From an uncultured Saprospiraceae bacterium (lineage in GTDB: Bacteria; Bacteroidota; Bacteroidia; Chitinophagales; Saprospiraceae), in contig CALIEI010000080.1 in NCBI GenBank assembly GCA_938022165.1, positions 1 to 48,284 on the forward strand: a stretch of DNA of 48,284 nucleotides, read 5' to 3'. Each line of letters opens with the position of its first letter. Positions within the stretch are counted from its first letter, which is position 1. Made by a program: the position numbers and the translations under genes. Under the pieces are notes generated by a model. It ran no database searches and was not told the origin of the DNA. It worked only from the letters and a program-made list of their open reading frames with translations. Below, one piece after another: positions 8,953 to 48,284 of this stretch.

Positions 8953-9131
8953 GGACTAGCGCTATGGAGTAGTGTCGATCTTTGATCGGCAGACTCTTCA
9001 CGTCTTTTTTTGACGTGAAGAGGCCGACCGCGTGTCGCTAAAGCTTTAGCGGTGGCGCAGCGAATAGCGAGCTACGTAAAAAAGCGACGGCTGATTTTTC
9101 ACTTTTTCGTGAAAAATCAGCCGTAGGCCCC
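8953..9131. repeat. structured intergenic repeat, family A copy 1
   Basis: Begins GGACTAGCGCTATGGAGTAGTG and ends GGCCCC. It contains hairpin CGATC-TTT-GATCG (8976-8988), conserved AGACTC (8991), a perfect 11-bp stem CTCTTCACGTC/GACGTGAAGAG, conserved AGGCCGACCG (9021-9030), a 32-base insert with the 16-base palindrome CGCTAAAGCTTTAGCG (9036-9051), conserved AATAGCGAGCTACG (9063-9076), and a 14-bp stem GGCTGATTTTTCAC/GTGAAAAATCAGCC. Fixed segments match the copy at 28608-28755; hairpin sequences do not. No ORF of note. Confidence 0.85.
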
Positions 9132-9207: not shown

Positions 9208-12200
9208 TTAGTCTACCTTGATTAACTTTTTGGTTACTTGACCTTGCTGGTTATATACTCTCACAAAGTAAGTACCTGCCGCATGATTTTCTAAATCTAA
9301 TCTTTCATTCAACTCAGAAGCTCTGTAAGCATTATTAATAACTTCTTGACCTAGTATATCATAAACAGATATTTGTATGTCAGAAACCTCGCTAAGTGTC
9401 AAATCTAAGAAGAATGCTCCGGTAGTAGGATTAGGACTAAGATCAAACTCTGTTATTATATCAAGATTGTCAAGCACAGAGGTTGTAGTACCATCTAGTA
9501 TAATATCTACTATTTGCATACATCCATTGGCGTCTGTTACAACTACTTGATACTCCCCTTCCGTTATACCTGTGTTAAAGAATCCATTGGAACCATCACT
9601 CCATTCATATGTATAAGGAGAACTTCCTCCAGTGGTGCTTAACGTTACATTAAATAGGTCGCTTGTAGATCCAGGTTCTACTGTATAGCTTGTATTTAGT
9701 CCACCTGGTGATTGAACTTCTCGACTCAAAATATATTGACATCCTAGTTCATCTGTAATGGTTACAGTGTATGATCCAGCAGCAAGACCTTGTCTATCTT
9801 CAGTAGTAGCACCATCGCTCCACAAGAATGTTACATTTGAGCTATTAGAATTTAAAATATCGAGTAAAATAAATCCATCATTTCCACCATCACATGAAGC
9901 ATCATTTGTAAAAACTTCAAAGCTAAGTGGATCAAACTCGGTAACTACCTCTATAGGATCACTCTCTACGCTACATCCATTCGCATCAATAACTGTAGCT
10001 GAATAAGTTCCACTTTCAAGTCCATTTATAAAAGGACCGAAATCACCATTGCTCCAACTAACTACAAAAGGAGCAGTTCCTCCAGATACAATTACTTCAG
10101 CACTTCCGCTAAGACCACAAGTACCATCAAATCCCTGTGTCGTAGAAGTAAGACGACTTGGTGAAGGAATTTCAATGCTTTGCTCAAAAATACAACCTAC
10201 TGCATCTTCGACAGTGATTACTACTAATGTGGCCGGAAGATTAGTCAATGAATTAGAACTAGATGATATCTCATATGGTTCCGTCCCCCCGCTAGGAGTT
10301 ACTACGATTGATCCATCAGACTCATTGAAACAAGATACAGGTGTTATCGCAAATGAAGCTGTTAAGGATTCACAATCATTCATATTGCCAGGATCATCAC
10401 TAGCAATCGTTACAGTTTCAGTAGTAATACAACCATTCTCATCTTCTGCAGTAACCGTGTAGGTGCCTGCTGCAAGATTCTCTACAGAAAGACCTTCACC
10501 TGCTCCATTAGACCAGCTTACATCAATATTTCCAGTTCCACCCATCACTTCTACAGTTGCAGAACCATCACTTATATTTGGATCAGATGCTTCTTGAACA
10601 TCTAGAATATTAATTATCAATTCTGATGGTTCAGTTATAGTTCCTTGTAGTATTATTTCACAACCATTTTGATCTCTTACTATCACTTCAAAGTCACCTG
10701 CAACCATTCCATTTTGGTTAAATCCAAGTGTATTACTGTTGCTCCAATCATAAAGTAATGGACCAAAACCACCTTCAGCAATAACAGTAGCTGAGCCATC
10801 TTCTCCACCAAAACAGGAAACATTTTCTATTTCTAATGCTCCTTGGAAACCACTACATTCATCTTCACCAATACCTACAACTACGGAGGCTTCGACTCTA
10901 CAGTCATTGGCATCCGATACAGTCACTGTATACGTACCGGGCTCTAAATTTTCGATAGAAGAACCAATACCAGCATTACCCCAATTGTAAGTATATGGTG
11001 GAGTTCCTCCAAATCCAGCAGCATTAGCACTACCATCATTAGATGTCGAAGTGGTTGAATTCATCGAAGAAGCAACTACATCTAACTCATTCGGCTCATC
11101 AACTAAGAATTCAAGTACAACCGTACAATCATTAGCGTCTGATATAGTTACGCTACCACTCCCACAAAGATCGTCTCTGTTTTGACCAGTTACACCATCA
11201 GACCATACAAAGGCATATGGTTCGCTGCCTCCTTGTGTAATAACTTCACCAATACCAGAGCATTCACCAAAACATAAAATATCTATAGTATTAATCTCAG
11301 CGGTGAAATCTATACATGGATTTTCAGCGTCAAATACTTCAATACAACCTATTGCTGAGCAATTTCCAGAACCTACAGTTACACAGTATTCGCCAGGTGA
11401 AAGACCTGTAGCGGTAGCAGTAGTTTGTTCTGAAGGATCATCCCATATATAAGTATATTCAATTCCTTCATTTCCACCACTGGCAAGTACACTTGCAGAA
11501 CCGTCTGCTGCTCCAGGGCTCGATACAATATCACTTGATAATTCTATTACAAGTTCTGATTCAGGTTGCGTTAATTCTAGTTCCGCCACATAGGTACAAT
11601 TATTACCATCAGTCACAGTAACTGAATATACCCCGGGTCCTAGATCAGTTTGTTGTTGTGTGCTAGGTAGTCCATTAGACCATTCAAAAGTTATAGGTTC
11701 TACAGGGTTATCAATATTGACCTGTAGTGCACCATCATTTGCTTCAAAACAAGTTATCTGATTTGTAAACGTCAACAAGGGGTCAAAGTCTTCACAAAGA
11801 TCCATTCCTGATTCTATAGTTGCACATGCCTCCACTATACATTCATTTGCATCTACTATGGTGACACAGAATTCTTCACCCCCACTTAAATTTTCGATAG
11901 TTTGATCGTTAGATTCATTTGACCATATATATGTGTAATCTTCAGTTCCACCTTCTACATTTGCCGTCATAGTTCCATCACCAGCACCAGAATCATTAGT
12001 AGTTGAAATTGACACAGTTAATTCTTCCGGTTCAGTAATTTCAAAAGCAATATCATCTTCACACCCATTTGCGTCTATCACAGTTACTACATAATTTCCA
12101 GGTGATAAATTTGTTACAATTGGTGCATCAGGTAACTCTGGATTCCAGATATATGTAAACGGTCCGGTTCCATTGAAGACGTCAATCTGTGCAAGCCCAT

Positions 12201-15200
12201 TTGATTCTCCAGCACAAGAAACATTTTCTGTACTAACTTCAATAGAGAATGAAGCACAATCTGGAGCATCCGCAGTTAAATCAAACGATTCTATTAGTGT
12301 GCATCCCGTAAGATTATTCGTCAAACTCACAACGTATGTACCCACGCCTAGATCTCCAATTGTCAAGCCAGTACCAATCACCATTCCGTTAAACTCCCAC
12401 TCAACCGTAATTTGGCCTGTTCCGAAATCATCAATTTGAGCAGAACCATCAAGAGCAGTTGAACTAGATGGGTCGGCGAAAGTCAATATGAAGTCAGGTT
12501 CTAAGAAATTTGACTCAATAATTATAGCGCCTTCACCAATACATCCATTGGCATCAGTTACCAATATAGAAACCTGTCCAGCTTGATCAACTGTGATCGT
12601 TTCAGTAGTTTGATCATCTATACTCCAGATAACTGAGTAAGGCTCTTGGCCACCCGTAGCAGTATATGATAGATCAGTGTTTGAGAAATTACAATCAAGT
12701 ACATCAACGCTAGATGAAATGGCAACTTCAATATTAGCATTTGCACAAATATCAGTTGCACCTTGAACGGTTGCACACTCTTCTCTATCGCATCCATTAG
12801 CATCTGTTGCGATTACACAATACGTACCAGGTGACAGATTTTCAATAGTCATAGTCGTTGCAGTAAATCCATCAGGTCCTGTCCAAACATAGCTGTAAGG
12901 CGCATTACCACCATTTAGGTTTGCAGATGCTGATCCATTATTTGCTCCTGGAGCAGACTCATTAATTGATGTAACTGAAAGATCTAAAGGAAATTCTGGT
13001 TCTAAGATATCAACATTAGCAACCACAGTACATTCATTAGCGTCCGTTACGGTTACTGAATTCATTCCCGCAGCTAAGTCTGTTGCGATAGCTGTCGTAC
13101 TATTAGAATTTGACCACGCATATGTGAATGGTTCTTGACCACCTTCCACAGTAACTTCTGTAACACCAGTCTCATCACCTCTACAAGAAATGATACCTGT
13201 AGTTGAGGCTGTGGCACTAAATTCTAGACAAGGATCTGATCCAGCGCCAACTTCAACACTTGCAACGCCCATACATCCATTCTCTGTAGTGACAACTAAG
13301 GTATATAAACCAGGTGCTAGATCCGCAATTGGATTACCTGAGTAGGCAGTACTATTCTGATCGGTCCATTCATATGAAATTATAGCACTACCATTCCCAG
13401 AAACAATTGCTTCAAGGCTACCATCATTTGCTCCTACAGTAGTTTCATTTGTAATGTCAAATTCGAAGGCAAGCTCAACACCAAAGCATGCATCCGCTTC
13501 TCCTTCTACTTCAAAAGATTCCGTTAACTCACAATTGTTTTCATCAGTTACAACTAAGGTATATGTCCCTGGTGCTAAATCTGTAATTCCAGTACAAGAT
13601 GTGGATACAAACTCATTTGGACCTGACCATGTACATGTTGTAGTTCCAGTTGTATTAAATAGTGTAGGTGTTATAGCCCCATCATTTGTTCCCGGAGCTG
13701 AAAGCCCTATAACAGCAGCTTCTACTACAATTGCATCTGGCTCATTAACTACAAAGTCTTCGATTATAGTTTCACATTGATTAGCATCTGTAATCGTAAC
13801 GGAAATCAAACCAGCTCCAACATTGGTAGCAGTTTGTTCGCTATCGCCATTTGACCACGAATAAGAATATGGTGCCATTCCTGCACCTACATTAGCAATT
13901 ATTGATGCCGTCTCATCTCCTGCACATAATATTGGGTCAGCAATCTCTAGAGCAACACTGTTTGCTGTAAATTCAAGACAAGGGTCAGCACCTGCACCAA
14001 TGGTAACACAAGTTAAAGTTGAACACTGTGTTTCATCTGTTACGACTAAGCAATATTCACCTGGACCTAAGAGAGAAAGATTTGGCGTATTTGCAGAAAA
14101 ACTAGCTGGTCCTGACCATGCATATGATATAGTTCCTACTCCACCTGTAATGCTAGATTCAATAGTCCCGTCCATAGCACCCAAGGTAGATTCATTCTGT
14201 TCTGATAGAAAGACTACAATTTCTTCTGGTGCTGTGATACTAACTTCTGCGCTAGCTGGGCAGCCTTCCGCATCCATAATAGCTACAGAATAATCACCAA
14301 CTGCAAGATCAGCTATACTAGGTGTTGTAAAGTTTCCTGGTGTCCATAAATATGTATATGGCTCAACTCCACCTGTGACAGTTACGGAAGCCGTTCCATC
14401 ATTTGTAGAAAAACATGAAATTGGAGTAGAACTTGCAGAAGCCGTTATTTCTGGACACATTTTCCCTTCTACCGAAGCTCCTTTAACTGTTGAACAACCA
14501 TTAACATCGGTTACAGTAATAAAGTACAAACCTCCAGCGAGACCATCTATCATATTTACATTCGTATCACCAGTAGACCAATTAATATTGTAAGGTTCAG
14601 TTCCACCAAAAATTTGCGCAGAAACTCCACCATCTAGAGCACCTGGATTGGATTCGTCTGTAGCAGTTAATATTGCATTCATCTGAGCTGGCTGCTCTAC
14701 AATCGCTTCAACGATAAGTCTACATCCGCCATCATCTGTAATAGTAACCGGATATATACCGGCCGCAAGATTAAATTGTGCAGGGAATGCAGGTCCAGAA
14801 GGCCATGCGTAAGAATAGGGTTGTGAACCTCCAGTTGCAGATATGATAATTTGTCCATCTGTATCATCAAAACAAGTTACAGGTGTAATATCAGCAGTTG
14901 CTGAAAGGGTGCAATTTAGATTTTCAATAACATGTGTCTCGATATATTCACAACCATTATTTAAATCCGTGATGGTAACCATATAAGTTCCCGCTCCAAG
15001 ATCAGTTATTTCATCTGTGGTAGATGTGCCCGTTGACCATTCATATTCGTACTCGGATGTACCGTTAGCATTTAAGTTAATGGAACCATCATTTGCTCCT
15101 GCATTGGTCTCGTCCTCAATAACAACATTCATATTTGGTGGAGCACCAGGATAAATTTCAAAGAAGAATGTTTCTTCACAATCATCCAGTGAGGTATCAA

Positions 15201-17979
15201 TTATACTTATGAAAAGAGGGCCTGCTTGCAGATTATCATTAAAAGTAGGCCCAACAAGAAATCCACCAGTTTGTGGTGGTCCACCTTGAGACCAAACTAT
15301 TTGAGGAGTATTCGCTCCAACTATAGTTATAGTACCTGTTCCTGGATCTCCAGTGCACGAAGGTTGAACTATATCAACTATTACTTCCATTTCACATTCA
15401 AAGCCAAATACTTGGACACAATCTTCTTTAGAACAACCCGCTTGGTCAGTTACAGTTACACAATAAATACCTGCACTAAGGCCAAATTGTAACGCATCTG
15501 CGGGATCATTTCCCGTTGGGAGTTGATTCCATTCAAAAGTATAAAATCCGGTTCCACCAAAAGCTTGAGCATTTGCAGATCCATTCATTGCCCCAGGAAC
15601 TGAAATATCTGTTGCATTAACAATTAATTCTAATTCATCCGGGCTTTCAATTGAAATCTCTTGAATAAATTCACAATCAAATTCAGTATCTACAACCGTA
15701 ACAGAATAATCTCCAGGGCATAAATTTTCAATCGACTCTCCTGTCTGTCCATCTACATTATTGCTCCAAGTGATTTGCGGTTCCGTTACGAACCCATTTA
15801 ATATCAAATCAATAAATCCAGTACATTCATCAGCACACAACAAATCACCAGCTTGCACCTGAACACTTGATGCACAACCATCTGACAAGTTGATATTATC
15901 TATATAAAGATTATTATTACTGTATCCTCTATTTACAATTTGGATTATAAATCTATTAGCTCCACTATATGACAATAAATCTACCACCTCATTTTTCCAT
16001 TCATTTGCTTGAGGAATAAATTCTAAAGGCTGTTGAGCAGATACAGTAGCGAGATCATTTCCACCTTCATAAAAAACAGTGGTAAATGAATCACCACAAT
16101 CTGTAGAGACTCTAATTTCAAGTGTATCTGATTCACTAAAATTATTTATGTTATAATAAGCAACATCAAAACCAAGTCTTGGATTTTCAATTTCTGAAAA
16201 ATCAACAACTGGAAACTCTAATATATCTATTGTTCCATTTCCGTCGGGATCATTAAAGTTTCTAAAGTAAACTGATTCATCTCCTACTCCATAAGCAGAA
16301 GCACTATTCAATTCCCACTCTCTAATGGTAGAACCCGGATCAAGAACAATAATATTAGAAGAAGTAGGAAGGTCTGTCTCATCTTCAAAATCCTCAAAAA
16401 TATTTGGGCTAAATACTTCAGGCGTATTTAGACTTATAGCCCTTTCATCATTAAATCCATTTTCGTCTTGTCCCCCGTTTGGGGCATTTGTCCAAGCTGT
16501 CAACTCAAAACTATAATCTGGAGATACAAAAGGTTCTAGAGAAACTTCTTCTGATTCTCCCTTAGCAAGATTACCAGTCCAATTAAATAAAGTAGAACCA
16601 GGTGTACCGGAAATTTTATATCTGATTTCACATGATGTTAGATTCGTATCACCAAAACCATTTGTTAGTAGTACGATTGGTGTAATGGTTTCACTACTAC
16701 AAAATTCCCCGTTTACTGGTTCTAATATATTTTGAATACCAGCATCTAATTCTATAGTAATAGGAGGTCCTCCGCCTCCTGGGTTTCCGCCTCCGCCAGT
16801 TGGCGTTCCTGCTTCACATGAAGAGGCTACTGTATTGGCACTCGTAATCAAACTTGCTCTTGTTCCTTGAGCCACTTGTCTCATTGCATCCCCTTGACCT
16901 ATCGTAAATGTCAATGCACATGCATCTGGAGAATAATCCATATAGTTAATGTACATATGCTCTTCAGAACAAGTAGTTGGTCCAGTCGGCCATGTCGTTC
17001 CATTACAACTCATTCTTTGAATAGAGTTTGTATTATCTGCCGCTAATGGTGTATCAGAGATCCCATCATCATTGCTACATCCTCCTGAGTTACCCCATAC
17101 GTGAGGCAAACCAAAACTATGTCCAACTTCATGAGTTAATGTTCTACCACCTTTACCAGTAAATCTATAATCTTGTACTGTACCATCAAAATTGGATCCG
17201 TGTGCACCTGGGAAGAAAGCCCAACCTAAAACCCCTCCAAATGCAGTAGTTCCTGGTATTGGAACAATCCAAACATTGTAATATTGACTTGTATTCCAAT
17301 GTGTTTGAGGTTTAATTGTGTTTCTTATAAATTCTCTACTAGGAACACTTTCATAAATATGTCTAACAATACCAGTAGTAGCATTTCCTTGTGGATCAAC
17401 TTCAGCAAGACAAAATTGCATTTCAGGATTTCCTTTGATGCCCTCCCATCTTGGAGGCACATTTGCCCACCCTGAATTCATAGCATTCAAATCTTCATTC
17501 AAAGTCTCCAACTGATCTATTATAGTTTGATCAGTTAAATTTTGGCCTTCACCTACAGCTTCACTTGATCTATGAATTATATGAAAAACGATAGGCATGT
17601 TTAAGACTTCAGCTTGACTTCTATTCGGTCTGCTTTCTCTTATCTTTCTCCCTCGTTTTTCTAATGCAGGTAAAGTTACATTAGTGAAATGTTCCAATTT
17701 TTTATCATAATCAGGATCCTCCTTACGCATCACCTCATGTACATGACTCATACCGCAACCATGATGATTTGATGGCTGCAATGGAATTTGACTTATCCCC
17801 AAACCTTTGTACTCATCTGGTCTAAGTGTATCCTTAGAAATAGAATGCTGTACAGGTTCTATATTCTGATCTGCGTTATTGGTAATTTCAAAATCACTTG
17901 GAGTAGAAGTATCAATAGAATTTGTTCCAGTAAATGCGAGCCCAAAAGTTAGGGCTAGAAATTTCACAAATTGGATCAT
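9208..17979 (-). CDS. giant secreted M43-type metalloprotease with SprB-like repeats and T9SS tail
   Basis: 2923 residues. A signal peptide (1-20) is followed by a prodomain-like region and a pappalysin/cytophagalysin (M43) protease: zinc site HEVGHSFGLPH (H283, E284, H287, H293) and Met-turn INYMDYS (M347). A Gly-rich linker (394-405) leads to two beta domains, about 408-520 and 525-705 (the latter jelly-roll-like). From about 707 to 2830 there are about 27 SprB-like repeats of roughly 79 residues, with GGxxPYxYxWSNG and YxVTVTDxNGC motifs. Two repeat types alternate: one ends in ITEPEEL-like sequence, the other starts SxPGAxDGSA and carries extra Cys (YCVTVTD...C...C). The last 80 residues are a T9SS type A sorting domain (LSPNPTTGAFFLDL ... 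GTYFVRVYNQQG ... KKLIKV). It should be exported across the outer membrane and act as adhesin plus protease. No frameshift seen. Confidence 0.93.
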   Translation of the reverse strand: MIQFVKFLALTFGLAFTGTNSIDTSTPSDFEITNNADQNIEPVQHSISKDTLRPDEYKGLGISQIPLQPSNHHGCGMSHVHEVMRKEDPDYDKKLEHFTNVTLPALEKRGRKIRESRPNRSQAEVLNMPIVFHIIHRSSEAVGEGQNLTDQTIIDQLETLNEDLNAMNSGWANVPPRWEGIKGNPEMQFCLAEVDPQGNATTGIVRHIYESVPSREFIRNTIKPQTHWNTSQYYNVWIVPIPGTTAFGGVLGWAFFPGAHGSNFDGTVQDYRFTGKGGRTLTHEVGHSFGLPHVWGNSGGCSNDDGISDTPLAADNTNSIQRMSCNGTTWPTGPTTCSEEHMYINYMDYSPDACALTFTIGQGDAMRQVAQGTRASLITSANTVASSCEAGTPTGGGGNPGGGGPPITIELDAGIQNILEPVNGEFCSSETITPIVLLTNGFGDTNLTSCEIRYKISGTPGSTLFNWTGNLAKGESEEVSLEPFVSPDYSFELTAWTNAPNGGQDENGFNDERAISLNTPEVFSPNIFEDFEDETDLPTSSNIIVLDPGSTIREWELNSASAYGVGDESVYFRNFNDPDGNGTIDILEFPVVDFSEIENPRLGFDVAYYNINNFSESDTLEIRVSTDCGDSFTTVFYEGGNDLATVSAQQPLEFIPQANEWKNEVVDLLSYSGANRFIIQIVNRGYSNNNLYIDNINLSDGCASSVQVQAGDLLCADECTGFIDLILNGFVTEPQITWSNNVDGQTGESIENLCPGDYSVTVVDTEFDCEFIQEISIESPDELELIVNATDISVPGAMNGSANAQAFGGTGFYTFEWNQLPTGNDPADALQFGLSAGIYCVTVTDQAGCSKEDCVQVFGFECEMEVIVDIVQPSCTGDPGTGTITIVGANTPQIVWSQGGPPQTGGFLVGPTFNDNLQAGPLFISIIDTSLDDCEETFFFEIYPGAPPNMNVVIEDETNAGANDGSINLNANGTSEYEYEWSTGTSTTDEITDLGAGTYMVTITDLNNGCEYIETHVIENLNCTLSATADITPVTCFDDTDGQIIISATGGSQPYSYAWPSGPAFPAQFNLAAGIYPVTITDDGGCRLIVEAIVEQPAQMNAILTATDESNPGALDGGVSAQIFGGTEPYNINWSTGDTNVNMIDGLAGGLYFITVTDVNGCSTVKGASVEGKMCPEITASASSTPISCFSTNDGTASVTVTGGVEPYTYLWTPGNFTTPSIADLAVGDYSVAIMDAEGCPASAEVSITAPEEIVVFLSEQNESTLGAMDGTIESSITGGVGTISYAWSGPASFSANTPNLSLLGPGEYCLVVTDETQCSTLTCVTIGAGADPCLEFTANSVALEIADPILCAGDETASIIANVGAGMAPYSYSWSNGDSEQTATNVGAGLISVTITDANQCETIIEDFVVNEPDAIVVEAAVIGLSAPGTNDGAITPTLFNTTGTTTCTWSGPNEFVSTSCTGITDLAPGTYTLVVTDENNCELTESFEVEGEADACFGVELAFEFDITNETTVGANDGSLEAIVSGNGSAIISYEWTDQNSTAYSGNPIADLAPGLYTLVVTTENGCMGVASVEVGAGSDPCLEFSATASTTGIISCRGDETGVTEVTVEGGQEPFTYAWSNSNSTTAIATDLAAGMNSVTVTDANECTVVANVDILEPEFPLDLSVTSINESAPGANNGSASANLNGGNAPYSYVWTGPDGFTATTMTIENLSPGTYCVIATDANGCDREECATVQGATDICANANIEVAISSSVDVLDCNFSNTDLSYTATGGQEPYSVIWSIDDQTTETITVDQAGQVSILVTDANGCIGEGAIIIESNFLEPDFILTFADPSSSTALDGSAQIDDFGTGQITVEWEFNGMVIGTGLTIGDLGVGTYVVSLTNNLTGCTLIESFDLTADAPDCASFSIEVSTENVSCAGESNGLAQIDVFNGTGPFTYIWNPELPDAPIVTNLSPGNYVVTVIDANGCEDDIAFEITEPEELTVSISTTNDSGAGDGTMTANVEGGTEDYTYIWSNESNDQTIENLSGGEEFCVTIVDANECIVEACATIESGMDLCEDFDPLLTFTNQITCFEANDGALQVNIDNPVEPITFEWSNGLPSTQQQTDLGPGVYSVTVTDGNNCTYVAELELTQPESELVIELSSDIVSSPGAADGSASVLASGGNEGIEYTYIWDDPSEQTTATATGLSPGEYCVTVGSGNCSAIGCIEVFDAENPCIDFTAEINTIDILCFGECSGIGEVITQGGSEPYAFVWSDGVTGQNRDDLCGSGSVTISDANDCTVVLEFLVDEPNELDVVASSMNSTTSTSNDGSANAAGFGGTPPYTYNWGNAGIGSSIENLEPGTYTVTVSDANDCRVEASVVVGIGEDECSGFQGALEIENVSCFGGEDGSATVIAEGGFGPLLYDWSNSNTLGFNQNGMVAGDFEVIVRDQNGCEIILQGTITEPSELIINILDVQEASDPNISDGSATVEVMGGTGNIDVSWSNGAGEGLSVENLAAGTYTVTAEDENGCITTETVTIASDDPGNMNDCESLTASFAITPVSCFNESDGSIVVTPSGGTEPYEISSSSNSLTNLPATLVVITVEDAVGCIFEQSIEIPSPSRLTSTTQGFDGTCGLSGSAEVIVSGGTAPFVVSWSNGDFGPFINGLESGTYSATVIDANGCSVESDPIEVVTEFDPLSFEVFTNDASCDGGNDGFILLDILNSNSSNVTFLWSDGATTEDRQGLAAGSYTVTITDELGCQYILSREVQSPGGLNTSYTVEPGSTSDLFNVTLSTTGGSSPYTYEWSDGSNGFFNTGITEGEYQVVVTDANGCMQIVDIILDGTTTSVLDNLDIITEFDLSPNPTTGAFFLDLTLSEVSDIQISVYDILGQEVINNAYRASELNERLDLENHAAGTYFVRVYNQQGQVTKKLIKVD

Positions 17980-23520: not shown

Positions 23521-23768
23521 AAGCTAAGCATCTTCGGGAAACCACCTTAGATACATTAGCTTAGCTTAATTGTACAAGTCACCTTAGACTTTTCTTAGGT
23601 GCCTTGTACATGTAAGAGAGGTCTTAGGTACCTCGTATGTTTACAAAATATAAAATAATAGGGAAAATCGTTACATTCTGATCTTTTGTATCGAGCCTTC
23701 AAGGAAAACACATTTTGGTACCAAGCAAGACATGATCTATGCACGACCTTAGAATTAGTCCTTGAGGG
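23521..23768 (+). ncRNA. candidate IS110 bridge RNA region
   Basis: The long leader of the IS110 transposase holds four helices in a row: AAGCTAAGC/GCTTAGCTT (23521-23529 with 23559-23567); TGTACAAG/CTTGTACA (23571-23578 with 23603-23610) with an inner CACCT/AGGTG helix; GAGGT/ACCTC (23618-23622 with 23630-23634) closed by GTAA/TTAC; and a 10-bp helix CCTTCAAGGA/TCCTTGAGGG (23696-23705 with 23759-23768). Several of the loops carry CTTAG. IS110-family elements are known to encode bridge RNAs in their non-coding end, with internal loops that pair to target and donor DNA. Exact ends and guides cannot be fixed by eye. Confidence 0.5.
23540..23554 (+). repeat. 15-base inverted repeat, left copy
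   Basis: AACCACCTTAGATAC, the exact reverse complement of 25046-25060. It also sits in the loop of the first leader hairpin. Confidence 0.85.
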
Positions 23769-23893
23769 TTTCTCTTAGAGTCACAACAGTATTGAAGGAA
23801 GTTATTTAATATTTCTATCCACGATCAAATGCGAGAGAAGACGAGGAGGGTTTCCGATACTTTTTTATTTAACAGCCTTAATAATTTTTAATT

Positions 23894-24949
23894 ATGGACG
23901 AAAAGTATTTGCGTTTTGGAGTTGGATTGGATATTAGTAAATCAACATTTGATGCTTCTTTTGGAGTTATACTAACGTCTAATCAATACAAAGTGATAAG
24001 AACAAAGAAGTTTAAAAATACCCCAGCTGGTGTAAAGGCATTTTTAGTTTGGCTTGAGCAAAATAGAGCTAAGAATAAATTAGAAAAAACAGACTTCAAA
24101 ATATTGATGGAGGTTACTGGCGTATACCATGAATCTGTTCTCTATTCTCTGTATAGAAACGGCTATCAAGCTTGTCTTGAATTGGGAGCTCGTGTAAAGC
24201 ACTACCTAAATGCAATAGGTCAGAAATCAAAAAATGACAAGAAAGATAGTATAGGAATAAATCGCATGGCGTGTGAGTTAAGTCCTAAACTATGGAAGCC
24301 AATATGTGAAAACATTCTGAATATCAGGAGTTTACTACGTCATAGAAAAGGATTAGTAAAATCAAAAACAAGACTAGAGAATCAATTACATGCCAATAGA
24401 TATAGTGAGGTTAAAGATCCAGAAGTAGAAAAGTCATTAAAAAAATTAATTGAACAGCTCAAAAAAGAGATTAAAAGAATTGAGATCAGAGCAGCGCAAT
24501 TAAGTAAAAGTGATGCAGATTTTCACAGAAAGGTGTTGCAGATAACTAAGAGTGTTTTTGGCTTAGGATTTATATCCGTACTGACAGTTATTTCAGAAAC
24601 AAATGGTTTCCAAGAGTTCAGAAATCGGAAGCAATTAGAAAGCTATGCAGGACTAGATATAGTAGAAAATAGTAGTGGTGTTTTTAGTGGAAAGACTAAA
24701 ATATCAAAAAAAGGAAATGCGAATATTCGAACAGTATTATACATGTCAGTGTTAACAATAGTTAGATCTAAAACAAAGCCATACTATAATTTATATAGTA
24801 GATTAATGGAAAGAAATGGGGGAATAAGTAAGAAAGCAAATATAGCTGTGCAACGTAAATTGTTACTTATAATTTACACACTATGGAAAAAAGATGAAGC
24901 CTTCGATATAAATCATTACGAAAATTTAAAAGAGGTAGTACCGGCATAA
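23894..24949 (+). CDS. IS110-family transposase (DEDD recombinase)
   Basis: 351 residues, full length. The N-terminal RuvC-like DEDD domain has D13 (GVGLDISKSTFD), E73 (LMEVTGVYHE), D115 and D118 (KSKNDKKDSIG). A basic coiled-coil linker (about 140-205) leads to the C-terminal Transposase_20 domain (FGLGFISVLTVISETNGF, ESYAGLDIVENSSG, KISKKGNANIRTVLYMSVL), which in this family carries the catalytic serine; the NSSG segment is the candidate. Acts as an RNA-guided recombinase in studied members. No frameshift or stop, so it may be active. The stop codon lies in the loop of a hairpin. Confidence 0.97.
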   Translation: MDEKYLRFGVGLDISKSTFDASFGVILTSNQYKVIRTKKFKNTPAGVKAFLVWLEQNRAKNKLEKTDFKILMEVTGVYHESVLYSLYRNGYQACLELGARVKHYLNAIGQKSKNDKKDSIGINRMACELSPKLWKPICENILNIRSLLRHRKGLVKSKTRLENQLHANRYSEVKDPEVEKSLKKLIEQLKKEIKRIEIRAAQLSKSDADFHRKVLQITKSVFGLGFISVLTVISETNGFQEFRNRKQLESYAGLDIVENSSGVFSGKTKISKKGNANIRTVLYMSVLTIVRSKTKPYYNLYSRLMERNGGISKKANIAVQRKLLLIIYTLWKKDEAFDINHYENLKEVVPA

Positions 24950-24961
24950 AGCCGATACTAC
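24935..24961 (+). other. hairpin over the transposase stop codon
   Basis: GTAGTA-c-CGGC and GCCG-a-TACTAC form a 10-bp stem with one mismatch around the loop ATAAA, which includes the TAA stop. A second short stem AGAGG/CCTCT follows within 30 bases. It may protect the mRNA 3' end or be part of the element's end structure. Confidence 0.55.
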
Positions 24962-25045
24962 TGTGGATAGAGGACTTTAAATGCCTCTTCCTTAGATTAT
25001 AAAGATAGTAAGTTTTTTTAATAAAAAAGTTTGGTATTGAACACA

Positions 25046-25060
25046 GTATCTAAGGTGGTT
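25046..25060 (+). repeat. 15-base inverted repeat, right copy
   Basis: GTATCTAAGGTGGTT, exact reverse complement of 23540-23554. A related 13-base sequence in the opposite orientation lies at 25158-25170 (CCACCTTAAATAA). Confidence 0.85.
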
Positions 25061-26188: not shown

Positions 26189-26420
26189 GTTGTGGGTCAT
26201 CCCATCATTTCATTCGGGACTGCGTCATCCGCTGTATGGGATGTATGTCATCGCTTATATAGAAAATTTAAGAATTTTCTCTAGGCCCACCCGAATACAT
26301 CCCATGCCGCTTCTACCGCTTGCCTCTAACGCGCTCCGCCCCGACTTTCCGTTACACTCCAGTCGGGACAAGCTTTGTCGAGCTTTGGAGCGTTCCGCTC
26401 GTCGCGATATTGATTTGTAT
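26189..26420. repeat. GC-rich intergenic repeat, family B copy 2
   Basis: Fills most of the 410-base gap between two convergent genes. It opens GTGGGTCATCCC and continues GGGACTGCGTCATCCGCTGTA; stems are GGGATGTAT/ATACATCCC, AGAAAATT/AATTTTCT and CCCGACT/AGTCGGG. The layout matches copies near 7009 and 44318. An open frame running through it has no protein-like composition. Confidence 0.55.
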
Positions 26421-28607: not shown

Positions 28608-28755
28608 GGACAAGCGCTGTGCAGTAGTGCCGATTTTTATCGGCAGACTCGAAGACTTTCCCGCCTTTTGTCAGGCGGGAAATCAGAGAGGCCGACCGAA
28701 TAGGGAGCTACGAAACATAGCGACCGCCGCCATTTTTTTGGCGGTGGATGGCCCC
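28608..28755. repeat. structured intergenic repeat, family A copy 2
   Basis: Lies in the 517-base gap between divergent genes. Starts GGACAAGCGCTGTGCAGTAGTG (three differences from copy 1 in 22 bases). Then hairpin CCGAT-TTTT-ATCGG, AGACTC (28645), stem TTTCCCGCC/GGCGGGAAA, AGGCCGACCG (28689-28698), directly AATAGGGAGCTACG (28699-28712) without the insert seen in copy 1, AGCGACC, stem CCGCCA/TGGCGG and the end ATGGCCCC. The rest of the gap (28367-28607, 28756-28856) holds nothing I recognise. Confidence 0.85.
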
Positions 28756-28883: not shown

Positions 28884-30464
28884 GTGGGCGTACTTATATT
28901 CTTTATACTTAGTTATATTCTATTGAGCATCAGTCTTTACTTCTTATTTCCAAAGGCGGGAGTAAGTGGTACAAAGGGGCTGATACCGGGAGTCAATTTT
29001 GTAGAATGGTGCAAGATCATTGGCCGAAAACCAAGCCACGCTCTGTGGTTGTTATTCCCGATTGTCAATATTTTCATTTACGCTGGCATGTGCGTGGACA
29101 TGATGTATTCGTTTGGGAAAACGAAATTTGCAGATAGCATTCTAGCTGTTGTCTATGCTCCTATCGCATTTTATAAATTGGCAAAAGATGACAAAGAGCA
29201 ATATAAAGTAGCCGCGTACCAAGACGAAAAAGACTATAAGCAAAAGCTAATAGATGCTGAGAAGTCCGGTGATAAATATGCGCTCAAAAAACTACAGAAG
29301 AATAATCCATACCAAAAGACGATTGGAAGAGAATGGGCAGAAGCGATTATTTTTGCTGTCTTCGCCGCGGCGTTTATTCGTATGTTTTTGATCGAGGCAT
29401 ACAAGATACCAACTGGATCGATGGAAGGATCATTGTTGATAGGAGATTTTTTGTTTGTAAGTAAAGCGCATTATGGAATCCGTACGCCAGAGACTATTGC
29501 TATGATTCCTCTACTGCACAATCGTATACCAATAATAAATAAAGAGTCTTACATAGAAAGTCCATCTATACCGAGTTTTAGATTGCCGGCTATCGAAAGT
29601 ATTGACCATAATAAACCGATAGTATTCAACTACCCTGAAGGAGATAGTGTATATGTGATCCCTGGTAGAACGTATAGCATACACGATGTAAAAAGAAAAC
29701 CTCAAGTGGCGAACCTAGTAAAAAAGAGAAGAGCCAAGCTAGATACTAGACCAATAGACAAAAGAGATCATTATATAAAGCGATGTATAGCTATGCCTGG
29801 AGACTCGCTGAGTATCGTAGATGCTCAAGTATATATAAACGGGACTGCGGCTGAAAATCCAAGTAAATTGCAATACAATTATATTGTACAACCTAATGGA
29901 GTAAATATCAATGTAAACAAACTCATCGATTGGGGCATATCACCAAACTATGATATCAACGATATTGGTAATGGAAGATTTTTGCTGACGCTATCAAATG
30001 ACGAATTGGAAAAAGTAAAAAGCCTAGATCCAAAAATACAAATCATAAGAATGCCAAACCAGCCCGGTGGTGCATTCCCACATTCAGAAGTATCTAAAGA
30101 CTGGACTGTAGATGATTTTGGTCCAATATGGATACCTAAAAAGGGAGCCACTACTCCACTTAGACCAGATAATATTGCTTTTTATAGAAGGGTAATCGAG
30201 GTCTACGAAGGAAATACTTTTGAGCAAAAAGGGAATACTTTTTATATCAATGGTGAGCAGGCTGATAGCTACACCTTCAAACAAGACTATTATTGGGGTA
30301 TGGGTGACAACAGACATAATTCTGAGGATAGCAGATACTGGGGTTATGTACCTCATGATCATATAGTAGGTAAACCACTGTTCATATGGTTCAGTACCAA
30401 AGATGGAAGCATGGGTAATGGTATCAATTGGAGTCGCCTGTTTTCTGGAGCGACTAAGATGTAA
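28884..30464 (+). CDS. lepB: signal peptidase I with N-terminal DUF5684-like membrane domain
   Basis: 526 residues from a GTG start. An N-terminal membrane domain (about 1-100, with helices near 3-22, 52-72 and 82-100) resembles DUF5684 fused to signal peptidases of Bacteroidota. The S26 peptidase follows a further membrane helix (about 152-170): catalytic Ser179 in YKIPTGSMEGSLLIGD and Lys299 in DHYIKRCIAMPGD, with the C-terminal GDNRHNSEDSRYWGYVP box. It cleaves signal peptides of exported preproteins at the inner membrane. Between the two catalytic residues lies a long insert (about 200-290), and another after 310, so the protein is about twice the size of simple S26 enzymes. That size is usual for this phylum. 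Confidence 0.95.
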   Translation: MGVLIFFILSYILLSISLYFLFPKAGVSGTKGLIPGVNFVEWCKIIGRKPSHALWLLFPIVNIFIYAGMCVDMMYSFGKTKFADSILAVVYAPIAFYKLAKDDKEQYKVAAYQDEKDYKQKLIDAEKSGDKYALKKLQKNNPYQKTIGREWAEAIIFAVFAAAFIRMFLIEAYKIPTGSMEGSLLIGDFLFVSKAHYGIRTPETIAMIPLLHNRIPIINKESYIESPSIPSFRLPAIESIDHNKPIVFNYPEGDSVYVIPGRTYSIHDVKRKPQVANLVKKRRAKLDTRPIDKRDHYIKRCIAMPGDSLSIVDAQVYINGTAAENPSKLQYNYIVQPNGVNINVNKLIDWGISPNYDINDIGNGRFLLTLSNDELEKVKSLDPKIQIIRMPNQPGGAFPHSEVSKDWTVDDFGPIWIPKKGATTPLRPDNIAFYRRVIEVYEGNTFEQKGNTFYINGEQADSYTFKQDYYWGMGDNRHNSEDSRYWGYVPHDHIVGKPLFIWFSTKDGSMGNGINWSRLFSGATKM

Positions 30465-44317: not shown

Positions 44318-44452
44318 TTGGGCGATCCCCCAGCCTACCCGCCATGCTATACAAGGGGTCGGGTCATTCGCAGCTTGGCCCCTTGCTCTCCCGCCTTGCC
44401 CAGTCGAGGGCTGTCTAGCAAAGCTAGCCACTGCTACTACCCCTATCGCATT
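44318..44452. repeat. GC-rich intergenic repeat, family B copy 3
   Basis: Opens GGGCGATCCCCCAGCC and continues GGGGTCGGGTCATTCGCAG, with CAAGGGG/CCCCTTG and CTAGC-AAA-GCTAG hairpins. Similar in order to the stretches near 7009 and 26189. GC-rich against an AT-rich background; open frames through it are not protein-like. Confidence 0.6.
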
Positions 44453-47936: not shown

Positions 47937-48058
47937 TGGCAATGGGTTCTTTTAATCAAATCAACTTGGACTCAGTTAGTGTCAAGTGCCATTAGTTGCT
48001 ACGCAGGAATTTTGTGGACACAAGTGCAGATTTTCAGTACTTATCGGTTTTGCGATAG

Positions 48059-48195
48059 GGACAGCAGTGATACGCAGTAGTCTAGAGACTCCATGAAGTA
48101 GTGGCTGACGACGGATGAGCGAATGAGCGAATACTAGTCAGCCACATACTGAATAAGTCTCTAGGCTGCTAAGTACAAACGGATGGCCCGGCCCC
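48059..48195. repeat. structured intergenic repeat, family A, divergent copy 3
   Basis: Starts GGACAGCAGTGATACGCAGTAGT and ends GGATGGCCCGGCCCC. A long nested stem: GCAG/CTGC, CTAGAGACT/AGTCTCTAG (48082-48090 with 48156-48164) and GTGGCTGAC/GTCAGCCAC (48101-48109 with 48137-48145). It keeps the family landmarks GGAC, GCAGTAGT, AGACTC, AGCGAATA and GGATGGCCC, but differs otherwise. A hairpin TATCG..CGATA stands just before it. Confidence 0.6.
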
Positions 48196-48215
48196 TGACT
48201 GAATGGTGCAAAGCA

Positions 48216-48268
48216 ATCTTGATCCAGTGGATCAAGATAATGAAGGAACTGCAGAAAACCTTCTGCAG
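48216..48268. other. two perfect hairpins near the window end
   Basis: ATCTTGATCC/GGATCAAGAT (48216-48225 with 48229-48238) and CTGCAGAA/TTCTGCAG (48249-48256 with 48261-48268). They follow the family A copy and may belong to the same structured element or to a gene beyond the window. Confidence 0.55.
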
Positions 48269-48284
48269 CAAAATAAAAGGGGAT

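Follow-up and report, generated by a model that had tools for sequence, protein, structure and literature searches.

Repeat elements at the locus

The window, that is, the whole stretch of 48,284 nucleotides from an uncultured Saprospiraceae bacterium that was analyzed, contains members of two families of interspersed repeats, called here A and B. Their helices are designated P0 to P5, and R1 and R2 are the covariance models of families A and B, respectively. The members, and the parts of the first of them, are as follows.

8953 to 9131, plus strand: family A element (copy 1) with an optional P4 insertion module; R1 match with E 4.3e-22
8953 to 8957, plus strand: 5' strand of P0 in copy 1, GGACU; its partner is AGGCC at 9125-9129, followed by CC at 9130-9131
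8969 to 8972, plus strand: 5' strand of P1b in copy 1, GTAG; its long-range partner is CTAC at 9072-9075
8974 to 8990, plus strand: hairpin P2 of copy 1 (GTCGAT/ATCGGC), assigned from sequence and covariation
8994 to 9022, plus strand: hairpin P3 of copy 1, a perfect stem of 11 bp, CTCTTCACGTC/GACGTGAAGAG
9028 to 9059, plus strand: optional P4 insertion module of copy 1 (CCGCGTGTCGC..GGTGGCGCA)
9087 to 9124, plus strand: hairpin P5 of copy 1, a perfect stem of 16 bp
28608 to 28755, plus strand: copy 2, a family A element lacking the P4 module; R1 match with E 5.8e-28
44320 to 44449, minus strand: fourth, divergent member with family B ends (GCGAT..ATCGC-CC); R1 match with E 8.4e-6 and R2 match with E 5.9e-6
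48052 to 48284, plus strand: family B element (copy 3), which ends at the contig edge

The E values of the R1 matches in the window refer to 78 kb searched; copy 2 is one of the ten copies from which R1 was built, and copy 1 is not. The middle pair of P0 in copy 1 is an A.G opposition. The fold of copy 1 as RNA has z = -7.0 against dinucleotide shuffles; for copy 2, z is -5.2 as RNA (also against dinucleotide shuffles) and -4.8 as DNA. The P4 insertion module is found in some copies of the same genome, is missing from copy 2, and occurs as a tandem pair in the element L023.

Copy 3 is matched by R2 from 48052 to 48225 (E 1.4e-42) and was not among the model copies of R2. It begins with GCGAT at 48052, the remainder of its P5 runs up to 48284, and its 3' end (ATCGC-CC) lies past the end of the contig; L041 is a full-length sister. 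Within this P5, at about 48196 to 48250, there is a module CTGAATGGTGC..CAATCTTG..CAAGAT..GAAGGAA; the same CTGAATGGTGC..CAATCTTG module is found in P5 of L330, a family A element of another species of the genus (genome G004), and has about 20 more short matches in the genome, several of them close to contig ends. The fourth member gave a weaker match, E 2.1e-5, in a further covariance search. A weak R2 match at 26194-26324 on the minus strand (E 0.005) is not counted as a member.

Two other features of the window may be mentioned. A minus-strand open reading frame of 2923 codons, at 9208-17979, adjoins copy 1. An IS110-family transposase gene at 23894-24949, with the domains PF01548 and PF02371, is flanked by the arms AACCACCTTAGATAC (23540-23554) and GTATCTAAGGTGGTT (25046-25060), and the interval of G004 that matches this region (23540-25060) has only about 220 bp.

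A sequence-only reading of the window had proposed three copies of one fixed skeleton carrying exchangeable hairpins. It placed the ends of copies 1 and 2 exactly, and inspection of the sequence confirms that their fixed segments are common to both and stand in the same order, and that each variable hairpin pairs perfectly, the sequences being unrelated between these two copies. The third copy was misassigned: it belongs to family B and has a different interior, the GGCCCC at 48190 that had been taken for its end is an inner segment, and no CGAT hairpin is seen in it. The suggested pairing of TCGGC with GCCGA does form in the lowest-energy RNA fold of copy 2, where it replaces hairpin P2, but it is not general, as L025, L031 and L032 have TCGGG at this place. 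The central proposal, a fixed skeleton with exchangeable hairpins constrained as a fold, is borne out by many copies in this genome and in its relatives. The covariance model suggested as a check recovers both family A copies at full length, and neither of the contrary outcomes that the reading had named, a lack of further copies or of compensatory pairing, was observed.

The fold of family A

From the outside in, a family A element is made of P0 (five pairs, the first base G and the last C), P1 (AGY..UGUG with CAUARCG) and P1b (GUAG with CUAC). P1b encloses the hairpins P2 and P3 and a small P4 hairpin. After these come the 3' strands of P1b and P1, the hairpin P5 and the second strand of P0, with CC and then an A-rich stretch behind it. 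Ten copies (alignment A3) went into R1; twelve of the 22 rows of alignment A1 were dropped for it, namely L030, L033, L035, L036 and eight rows with the P4 module, copy 1 among them.

Covariation was measured in two alignments of 55 matches each. A4 comes from the genome of the window and its relatives and includes the model copies, and A5 comes from named genomes, with the genome of the window left out; some elements are present in both under different locus names (e.g., L098 and L189). In A4, 24 of 28 pairs have changed on both sides, 91.2% of cells pair, and the covariation score is 0.49 as compared to 0.15 in shuffled alignments; the corresponding values in A5 are 22 of 28 pairs, 88.8%, and 0.44 as compared to 0.14, all of these being values from alignments that were fitted to the model and therefore lean towards it. 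None of 500 shuffles of either alignment reached any of the five measures used, and in controls with the structure slid along the alignment at most 42.5% of cells pair.

In the long-range helix P1b, 99.5% of cells are paired in A4 and 100% in A5, with GC, UA, CG and AU variants, and the pairs of P0 covary across both alignments. P1 contains a fixed G-U pair, seen in 52 of 55 rows of A4 and 50 of 54 rows of A5. A pattern that did not require pairing found the small P4 hairpin in 38 of 55, 52 of 55 and 44 of 88 elements (134 in total), and every one of these hairpins is paired; a larger form of P4 is found in 37 of the 88 elements of Saprospira strain S. grandis Lewin. Perfect stems of at least 11 bp are found in 14 of 55 elements, and L098, L034, L112, L091 and L028 contain mismatch-free hairpins of 20-28 bp. 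The fold of the element is almost certainly under constraint.

Family B, the common frame and the ends of elements

Family B, modeled from 15 copies (alignment A6), has the same frame as family A, i.e., P0, P1 of AGGGA..CCCG type, P5, CC, and an A-rich stretch, and its interior is a long rod with conserved, purine-rich internal loops. In its alignment, 40 of 49 pairs have changed on both sides, 92.7% of cells pair, and the score is 0.58 as compared to 0.21 after shuffling, with no equally good result in 500 shuffles; the weakest helix is P0, which is paired in 75.4% of cells. A constant frame (P0, P1, P5) closes over an interior that is either the B rod or the A domain, the latter formed by P1b, P2, P3 and P4, and the hairpins and small modules inside the elements are exchangeable. 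Across the families, elements are about 95-240 nt long. Upstream of the orthologues of copy 2 in genomes G002 and G004 (L297 and L298) we noticed by eye a repeat with the same frame and yet another interior, which in G004 reads GTATGAGGGATAGG...GCCCGACC...GATAC-CC.

The ends are sharp. Profiles were made from 105 elements of S. grandis (both strains) and from 51 of the 55 A4 matches, with four divergent ones omitted. The base at -1 is a pyrimidine in 80% (S. grandis) and 88% (A4) of cases, and is G in 6% of the S. grandis elements and in none from A4. Every element starts with G. The 3' end is C, then mostly CC, and A predominates at each of the three positions that follow (86, 95 and 87% in S. 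grandis; 65, 84 and 84% in A4). The end profile can be written as Y/G...CC/WAA, with slashes at the borders of the element. The profiles have no shared upstream motif beyond the pyrimidine at -1, and no T-run downstream.

Abundance and distribution

The genome of the window (G000) is a 3.9 Mb draft in 258 contigs. DNA searches of this draft at E<=0.001 gave 29 matches with copy 1, 25 with copy 2, and 41 with the region of copy 3, many of the latter to its last part only. With the covariance models there are at least 51 matches of R1 at E<=1e-3 (the best 150 of 1059 candidates scored, the ten model copies included) and at least 79 matches of R2 (the best 125 of 700 candidates, model copies included).

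R1 was run against 60 genomes, that of the window included, and matched in eight: the four same-genus genomes G000, G002, G004 and G005 have at least 42-48 matches each and G017 at least 48 (the best 48 candidates scored in each case), G034 has 15, and G012 and G033 have one each. R1 gave no match in two further genomes of the genus (G001 and G003), or in 23 genomes from other families of the order. A pattern scan of named genomes found at least 117 stretches, and of the 117 matches listed, 116 are titled Saprospiraceae, Saprospira, Aureispira or Lewinella, and one is a Sphingobacteriia metagenome-assembled genome (L215). Among the best 150 candidates per genome, R1 matched at least 150 times in S. 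grandis Lewin, 149 in S. grandis DSM 2844, 146 in G067, 149 in G068, 78 in G065, 76 in G064, 46 in an Aureispira metagenome-assembled genome, 42 in Lewinella cohaerens, and 17 in G066. The coordinates of matches in G065, G064 and G067 are shared with G004, G005 and G017, so these are the same assemblies. Copies are also found on the plasmid of S. grandis Lewin. In a sample of 395 genomes of the phylum, matches besides those in the genome of the window were limited to one genome of the same family and one weak match (E 5.5e-4), a count that is likely to miss copies, as only the best seven candidates per genome were scored. Lewinella is not placed under Saprospiraceae in NCBI taxonomy, and we therefore describe the hosts loosely as Saprospiraceae and their close relatives.

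R2, run against 21 genomes, has at least 79 matches in G000, 42 in G002, 95 in G004, 51 in G005, 94 in G017, 13 in G034, 12 in G062, 15 in G066, and 7 in G068; it has no match in the other 12, both S. grandis strains among them.

In S. grandis, two samples of 400 kb were searched with R1. The first (160 kb of Lewin and 240 kb of DSM 2844) has 106 matches at E<=1e-3, of which one, cut by the end of a stretch, was left out to give the 105 elements used here, and the second (200 kb per strain) has 89. Lewin alone has 88 elements in 360 kb, 44 of them in the sample of 160 kb and as many in that of 200 kb, or approximately one per 4.1 kb, which extrapolates to about 1000 copies in its 4.35 Mb if the sampled stretches are typical. 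Bacteria of the Saprospira group thus have from tens to roughly a thousand copies per genome.

Persistence at the same sites and probable exchange in place

Copy 2 lies upstream of the gene at 28884-30464, and orthologous elements are found in G002 and G004 at the same place and in the same orientation, with quite different hairpins; P1b at this site is GUAG/CUAC in G000, GCAG/CUGC in G002 and GGAG/CUCC in G004. The orthologous site in G001 has no element upstream of this gene. Twenty elements of G004, taken from at least 78 matches, were compared to 48 loci of the genome of the window, all of which carry an element. Six of the twenty have flanks orthologous to one of these loci, the elements being in the same orientation and the identity 68-78%; the other 14 have no partner among these loci. 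One G000/G004 pair has an unusual P0 (GGAUA/UAGCC) kept in both species, and hairpins that differ.

The two S. grandis strains allow a closer comparison. Both flanks were found in the sampled stretches of DSM 2844 for 40 of the 88 Lewin sites, and the 25 of these that bracket one clean partner element were compared, 15 composite or rearranged sites being left out. The flanks of the 25 pairs have diverged by 5.8% (in local alignments). In 17 pairs the elements align nearly whole at 90% or better and have diverged by 3.5%; as these pairs were picked by identity, the difference from the flanks is an upper estimate. In five pairs, parts of the element have been replaced. In the remaining three, a wholly different element subtype stands between flanks that are 89-97% identical, and the borders of the change lie in the terminal GGC on one side and the terminal GCCCC on the other, both of which the subtypes share. 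At two of these three sites, a hairpin immediately upstream that is seen beside other elements too could have been the substrate of homologous exchange; no such upstream hairpin was seen at the third. At a site outside the 25, the Lewin element contains a module called C (net 43 nt) that its DSM 2844 counterpart lacks.

In 18 conserved orthologous pairs of elements, 36 base pairs have changed: 19 of these are broken on one side, eight are changed on one side and still paired, eight are compensated on both sides, and one is broken on both. None of the 40 Lewin sites for which both flanks could be located (in two S. grandis stretches) has a clean empty counterpart, so that insertion itself was not seen. 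In sum, the site of a resident element is retained between strains and, for some elements, between species, and replacement affects patches, modules or everything between the ends of the element; we regard exchange in place as very probable.

At L355, L365 and L366 the two S. grandis strains differ by a rearrangement with breakpoints on family A elements, as if copies had recombined, and at L245:19164-19310 in DSM 2844 there is an apparent fusion of two copies in inverted orientation, with a 15 bp inverted repeat, CGTTTCGCAGCTCGC/GCGAGCTGCGAAACG.

Folding of one strand, and the type of nucleic acid

The array of protein-binding cruciforms that the sequence-only reading had considered is not favored by the pairing. 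In columns with more than 60% Watson-Crick pairs, G-U outnumbers A-C by 25 to 5 in A4 and by 13 to 2 in A5, and for 168 of 215 elements (a set that includes orthologues from both S. grandis strains) folding is more favorable on the listed strand than on its complement. This is not what a symmetric cruciform would produce; the excess of G-U and the difference in stability indicate a fold of one strand.

Whether this strand folds as DNA or as RNA is a matter of several lines of evidence. The loops favor DNA, without proving it. C(GNA)G triloops make up 16 of 43 triloops in A4, 20 of 49 in A5 and 99 of 172 in Lewin, as compared to 2 of 97, 1 of 92 and 13 of 161 in controls (five mononucleotide shuffles), and C(GNNA)G tetraloops make up 9 of 53, 19 of 68 and 22 of 68, as compared to 13 of 222, 10 of 214 and 39 of 358. 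The tetraloops usual in RNA, GNRA and UNCG, are not enriched in the same sets: GNRA accounts for 0 of 53, 3 of 68 and 7 of 68 tetraloops, as compared to 26 of 258, 21 of 222 and 35 of 328 after shuffling, and UNCG was seen 0, 0 and 1 times. GNA and GNNA loops closed by G-C pairs are described as extraordinarily stable mini-hairpins of DNA (PMC4686876). This argument is weakened by the use of RNA-model folds to read the loops, by the occurrence of GNA loops in RNA as well, and by changes of the G: among 23 GNA loops in the conserved orthologous pairs, the first, middle and third bases have changed 4, 6 and 1 times. Also counting against DNA are the RNA-like content of G-U pairs, which over all columns number 80 in A4 and 86 in A5, or approximately 6% of the paired cells of family A (fixed columns counted), and approximately 8% in family B (52 of about 674), and the conserved purine-rich internal loops of the B rod. 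The fold of copy 2 with DNA parameters is without P1/P1b, and its RNA fold has P1, P1b, P3 and P5 and is without P2. On balance, we lean only tentatively, at somewhat less than even probability, to single-stranded DNA rather than RNA as the form in which the element is read.

The genes around the elements give no orientation bias. For the 105 S. grandis elements, with neighbors defined by simple ORF calls that overlap 52 of them, both genes have the orientation of the element in 27 cases and the opposite one in 34, and 23 and 21 cases are mixed; for 43 elements of the genome of the window the four counts are 13, 13, 9 and 8, five more elements being at contig edges, and one of these 48 lies inside an ORF of at least 120 aa. 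By eye, there is no strong bias of element strand along the S. grandis sequence either. Together with the lack of an upstream motif and of a T-run in the end profiles, this argues against elements of mRNA and against ordinary small RNA genes.

Possible mechanism and alternatives

The three possibilities left by the sequence-only reading, a mobile element, a structured RNA and a cruciform array, have been narrowed and are not fully separated. For a mobile or exchangeable element there are the sharp ends, the patchy distribution, the plasmid copies and the swaps in place, and against it the lack of an empty site among those compared. We consider it about equally probable and improbable that these are cassette-like non-coding interspersed elements, kept for the fold of one strand and exchanged in place. 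Under such a scheme, the element would act as DNA, in the form of a single strand that folds when replication, repair or transcription exposes it; a recombination or transposition process would recognize the folded frame, copy it to new sites, and swap residents like a cassette; and the stems would be free in sequence because only shape is read. The stems may be renewed by template switching, which has been published as able to create and maintain hairpins and as a route to perfect and compensated ones (PMC8794818). A stronger version, in which a dedicated system swaps folded single-stranded DNA cassettes in place between hundreds of long-lived chromosomal sites, with the common frame recognized by shape, the interiors interchangeable, and shape rather than sequence inherited, appears to us rather unlikely.

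The alternative that survives best is a family of structured RNAs, in which each copy would be a transcript, or part of one, that is catalytic or has its fold recognized by a protein, the copies having spread in the manner of mobile RNA genes. In agreement with it are the covariation together with the fixed G-U pair of P1, the RNA-like G-U content and conserved internal loops of family B, and an RNA energy model that yields four helices of copy 2 (P1, P1b, P3 and P5) and misses P2; the G at position 1 together with the 3' CC(A) resembles a tRNA-like end. Against it stand the missing orientation bias, an upstream motif that amounts to the pyrimidine at -1, the lack of a downstream T-run or of a promoter-like signal, and the enrichment of C(GNA)G in place of GNRA and UNCG loops. 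As for spread by a reverse transcriptase, RVT_1 was not found in 8 of the 12 element-rich genomes tested, that of the window included (these are draft assemblies). We give this alternative an appreciable, if clearly minor, probability.

The elements could also be old neutral repeats with a fold that has no function, the pairing of their stems being renewed through template switching and through gene conversion between copies. Perfect stems of up to 28 bp, the exchange of patches between strains, and the 19 of 36 changed pairs that are broken on one side in the 18 conserved orthologous pairs would fit this, and template switching has been published as a hairpin-making process (PMC8794818). Yet the long-range helices P0 and P1b covary despite the hairpins between their strands, the unpaired skeleton and the class of loop are conserved across genomes, and copies that have not been swapped diverge less than flanks do (3.5% in the 17 pairs vs. 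5.8% for the flanks of all 25, an upper estimate of the gap). Neutrality is thus improbable.

Two specific transposases are very improbable as movers. REP-like repeats moved by a Y1 (RAYT) transposase, with the GTAG before P2 as the tag, are suggested by the frequent GTAG-U-hairpin arrangement in family A, REP repeats being described as GTAG-tagged palindromes (PMC3733652). But this position covaries with the distant CTAC (e.g., GCAG/CTGC and GGAG/CTCC), and hence is a helix and not a fixed tag; Y1_Tnp has no match in the drafts G005 and G017, which have at least 76 and at least 146 copies; and an element lies near 2 of 30 Y1 loci, both in copy-dense genomes. An IS110-family transposase, guided by a bridge RNA, is found in all four element-bearing and in neither of the two element-free genomes of the genus, and equally has little chance of being the mover: a genome-wide search with one of its two Pfam domains (Transposase_20) gave no match in the two S. 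grandis strains, G017, G062, G063 and G068, all element-rich, and a match in G008, where R1 found no element.

No helper enzyme, then, tracks the copies, as Y1_Tnp, RVT_1 and Transposase_20 each fail in element-rich genomes (drafts may lack genes). An autonomous partner was sought beside the single copies of G012 and G033, where reading of the ORFs gave ordinary-looking genes only, polymerase/pantothenate-like and surface-protein-like. Hairpin arms were tried as guides: 16 perfect hairpins, drawn from the whole of A4 and in several cases belonging to other genomes, were compared as 12-mers to 285 kb of the genome of the window, with one hit that we take as chance. In S. grandis Lewin (L378), a reverse transcriptase gene (a frame of 562 aa) lies between two A elements in opposite orientation, which may be chance given one element per approximately 4 kb. 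At L021, in contig C230 of the genome of the window, what may be the 5' end of a group II intron (GTGTGCC..) directly follows the CACTC-CC end of an A-type element.

Significance

We found no description of these repeats in the literature, and an earlier mention in the S. grandis genome paper is possible; to our knowledge, a frame with an exchangeable interior and swapping in place has been described for no repeat family. The elements look like an undescribed kind of interspersed repeat. With the copy number extrapolated for S. grandis, they would rank among the more abundant classes of structured non-coding elements known to us in a bacterium. They would also be a rare case in which the fold is inherited and the sequence replaced, and they offer a natural test bed for the creation and upkeep of hairpins and for single-stranded DNA folds as units of selection. 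Element-bearing isolates exist (S. grandis DSM 2844 and Lewinella cohaerens DSM 23179), so that the question of RNA or DNA is directly testable.

Relation to known repeats and structured elements

Rfam models gave no match in the window at the gathering score; at relaxed thresholds there were nine weak hits around copy 1, with E of 0.15 or more, and, among seven loci, no hit over an element at E up to 3 and two weak hits outside elements. Rfam holds HEARO, and the HEARO and OMEGA RNAs of IscB-TnpB elements are multi-copy structured non-coding RNAs of a mobile type; the present elements differ from them in having no Rfam match and no nuclease-like gene beside the two single-copy loci, by ORF reading. 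Of the features of a MITE, P0 provides an inverted terminus of 5 bp; no target duplication was noticed by eye, and no empty site was found. A partner reverse transcriptase, as for a SINE-like element, was not found in 8 of the 12 element-rich genomes.

BOX elements of pneumococci are modular intergenic repeats in which a sequence-conserved inner module occurs in variable number. L023, with its P4 module in tandem, is reminiscent of this arrangement; unlike in BOX, most stem sequences here are free, and shape is kept.

The nearest kinds are the bcr repeats and the REP/RAYT repeats. The repeats bcr1-bcr18 of Bacillus cereus are described (PMC6542083) as interspersed repeats of 100-400 bp in one bacterial group, with up to 130 copies of bcr1, some on plasmids, and with features of mobile DNA. 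The present elements are likewise interspersed, restricted to a group, and present on a plasmid. They differ in belonging to another phylum, in having no fixed TTTAT, the bcr motif, in the end profile, and in that their families share a frame with exchangeable interiors, reach about 1000 copies by extrapolation, and undergo whole-element swaps in place. REP and REPIN sequences, the single-stranded DNA of which is cleaved by RAYT (PMC3733652), are similar in being high-copy intergenic hairpin elements. They are palindromes of 20-40 bp with a tetranucleotide tag, GTAG or CGTC, and often have a linked Y1 enzyme, whereas the present elements are multi-helix folds of about 95-240 nt with no fixed tag and no tracking enzyme; neither a GTAG-tagged palindrome of 20-40 bp nor an association with RAYT/Y1 was found in these draft assemblies.

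In the way they may be read, the elements can also be set beside the attC sites of integrons, which are recombination sites recognized as a folded single DNA strand, with the stem sequence largely free. Unlike attC sites, they are dispersed rather than arranged in a cassette array, and each has a closing frame that holds several hairpins.
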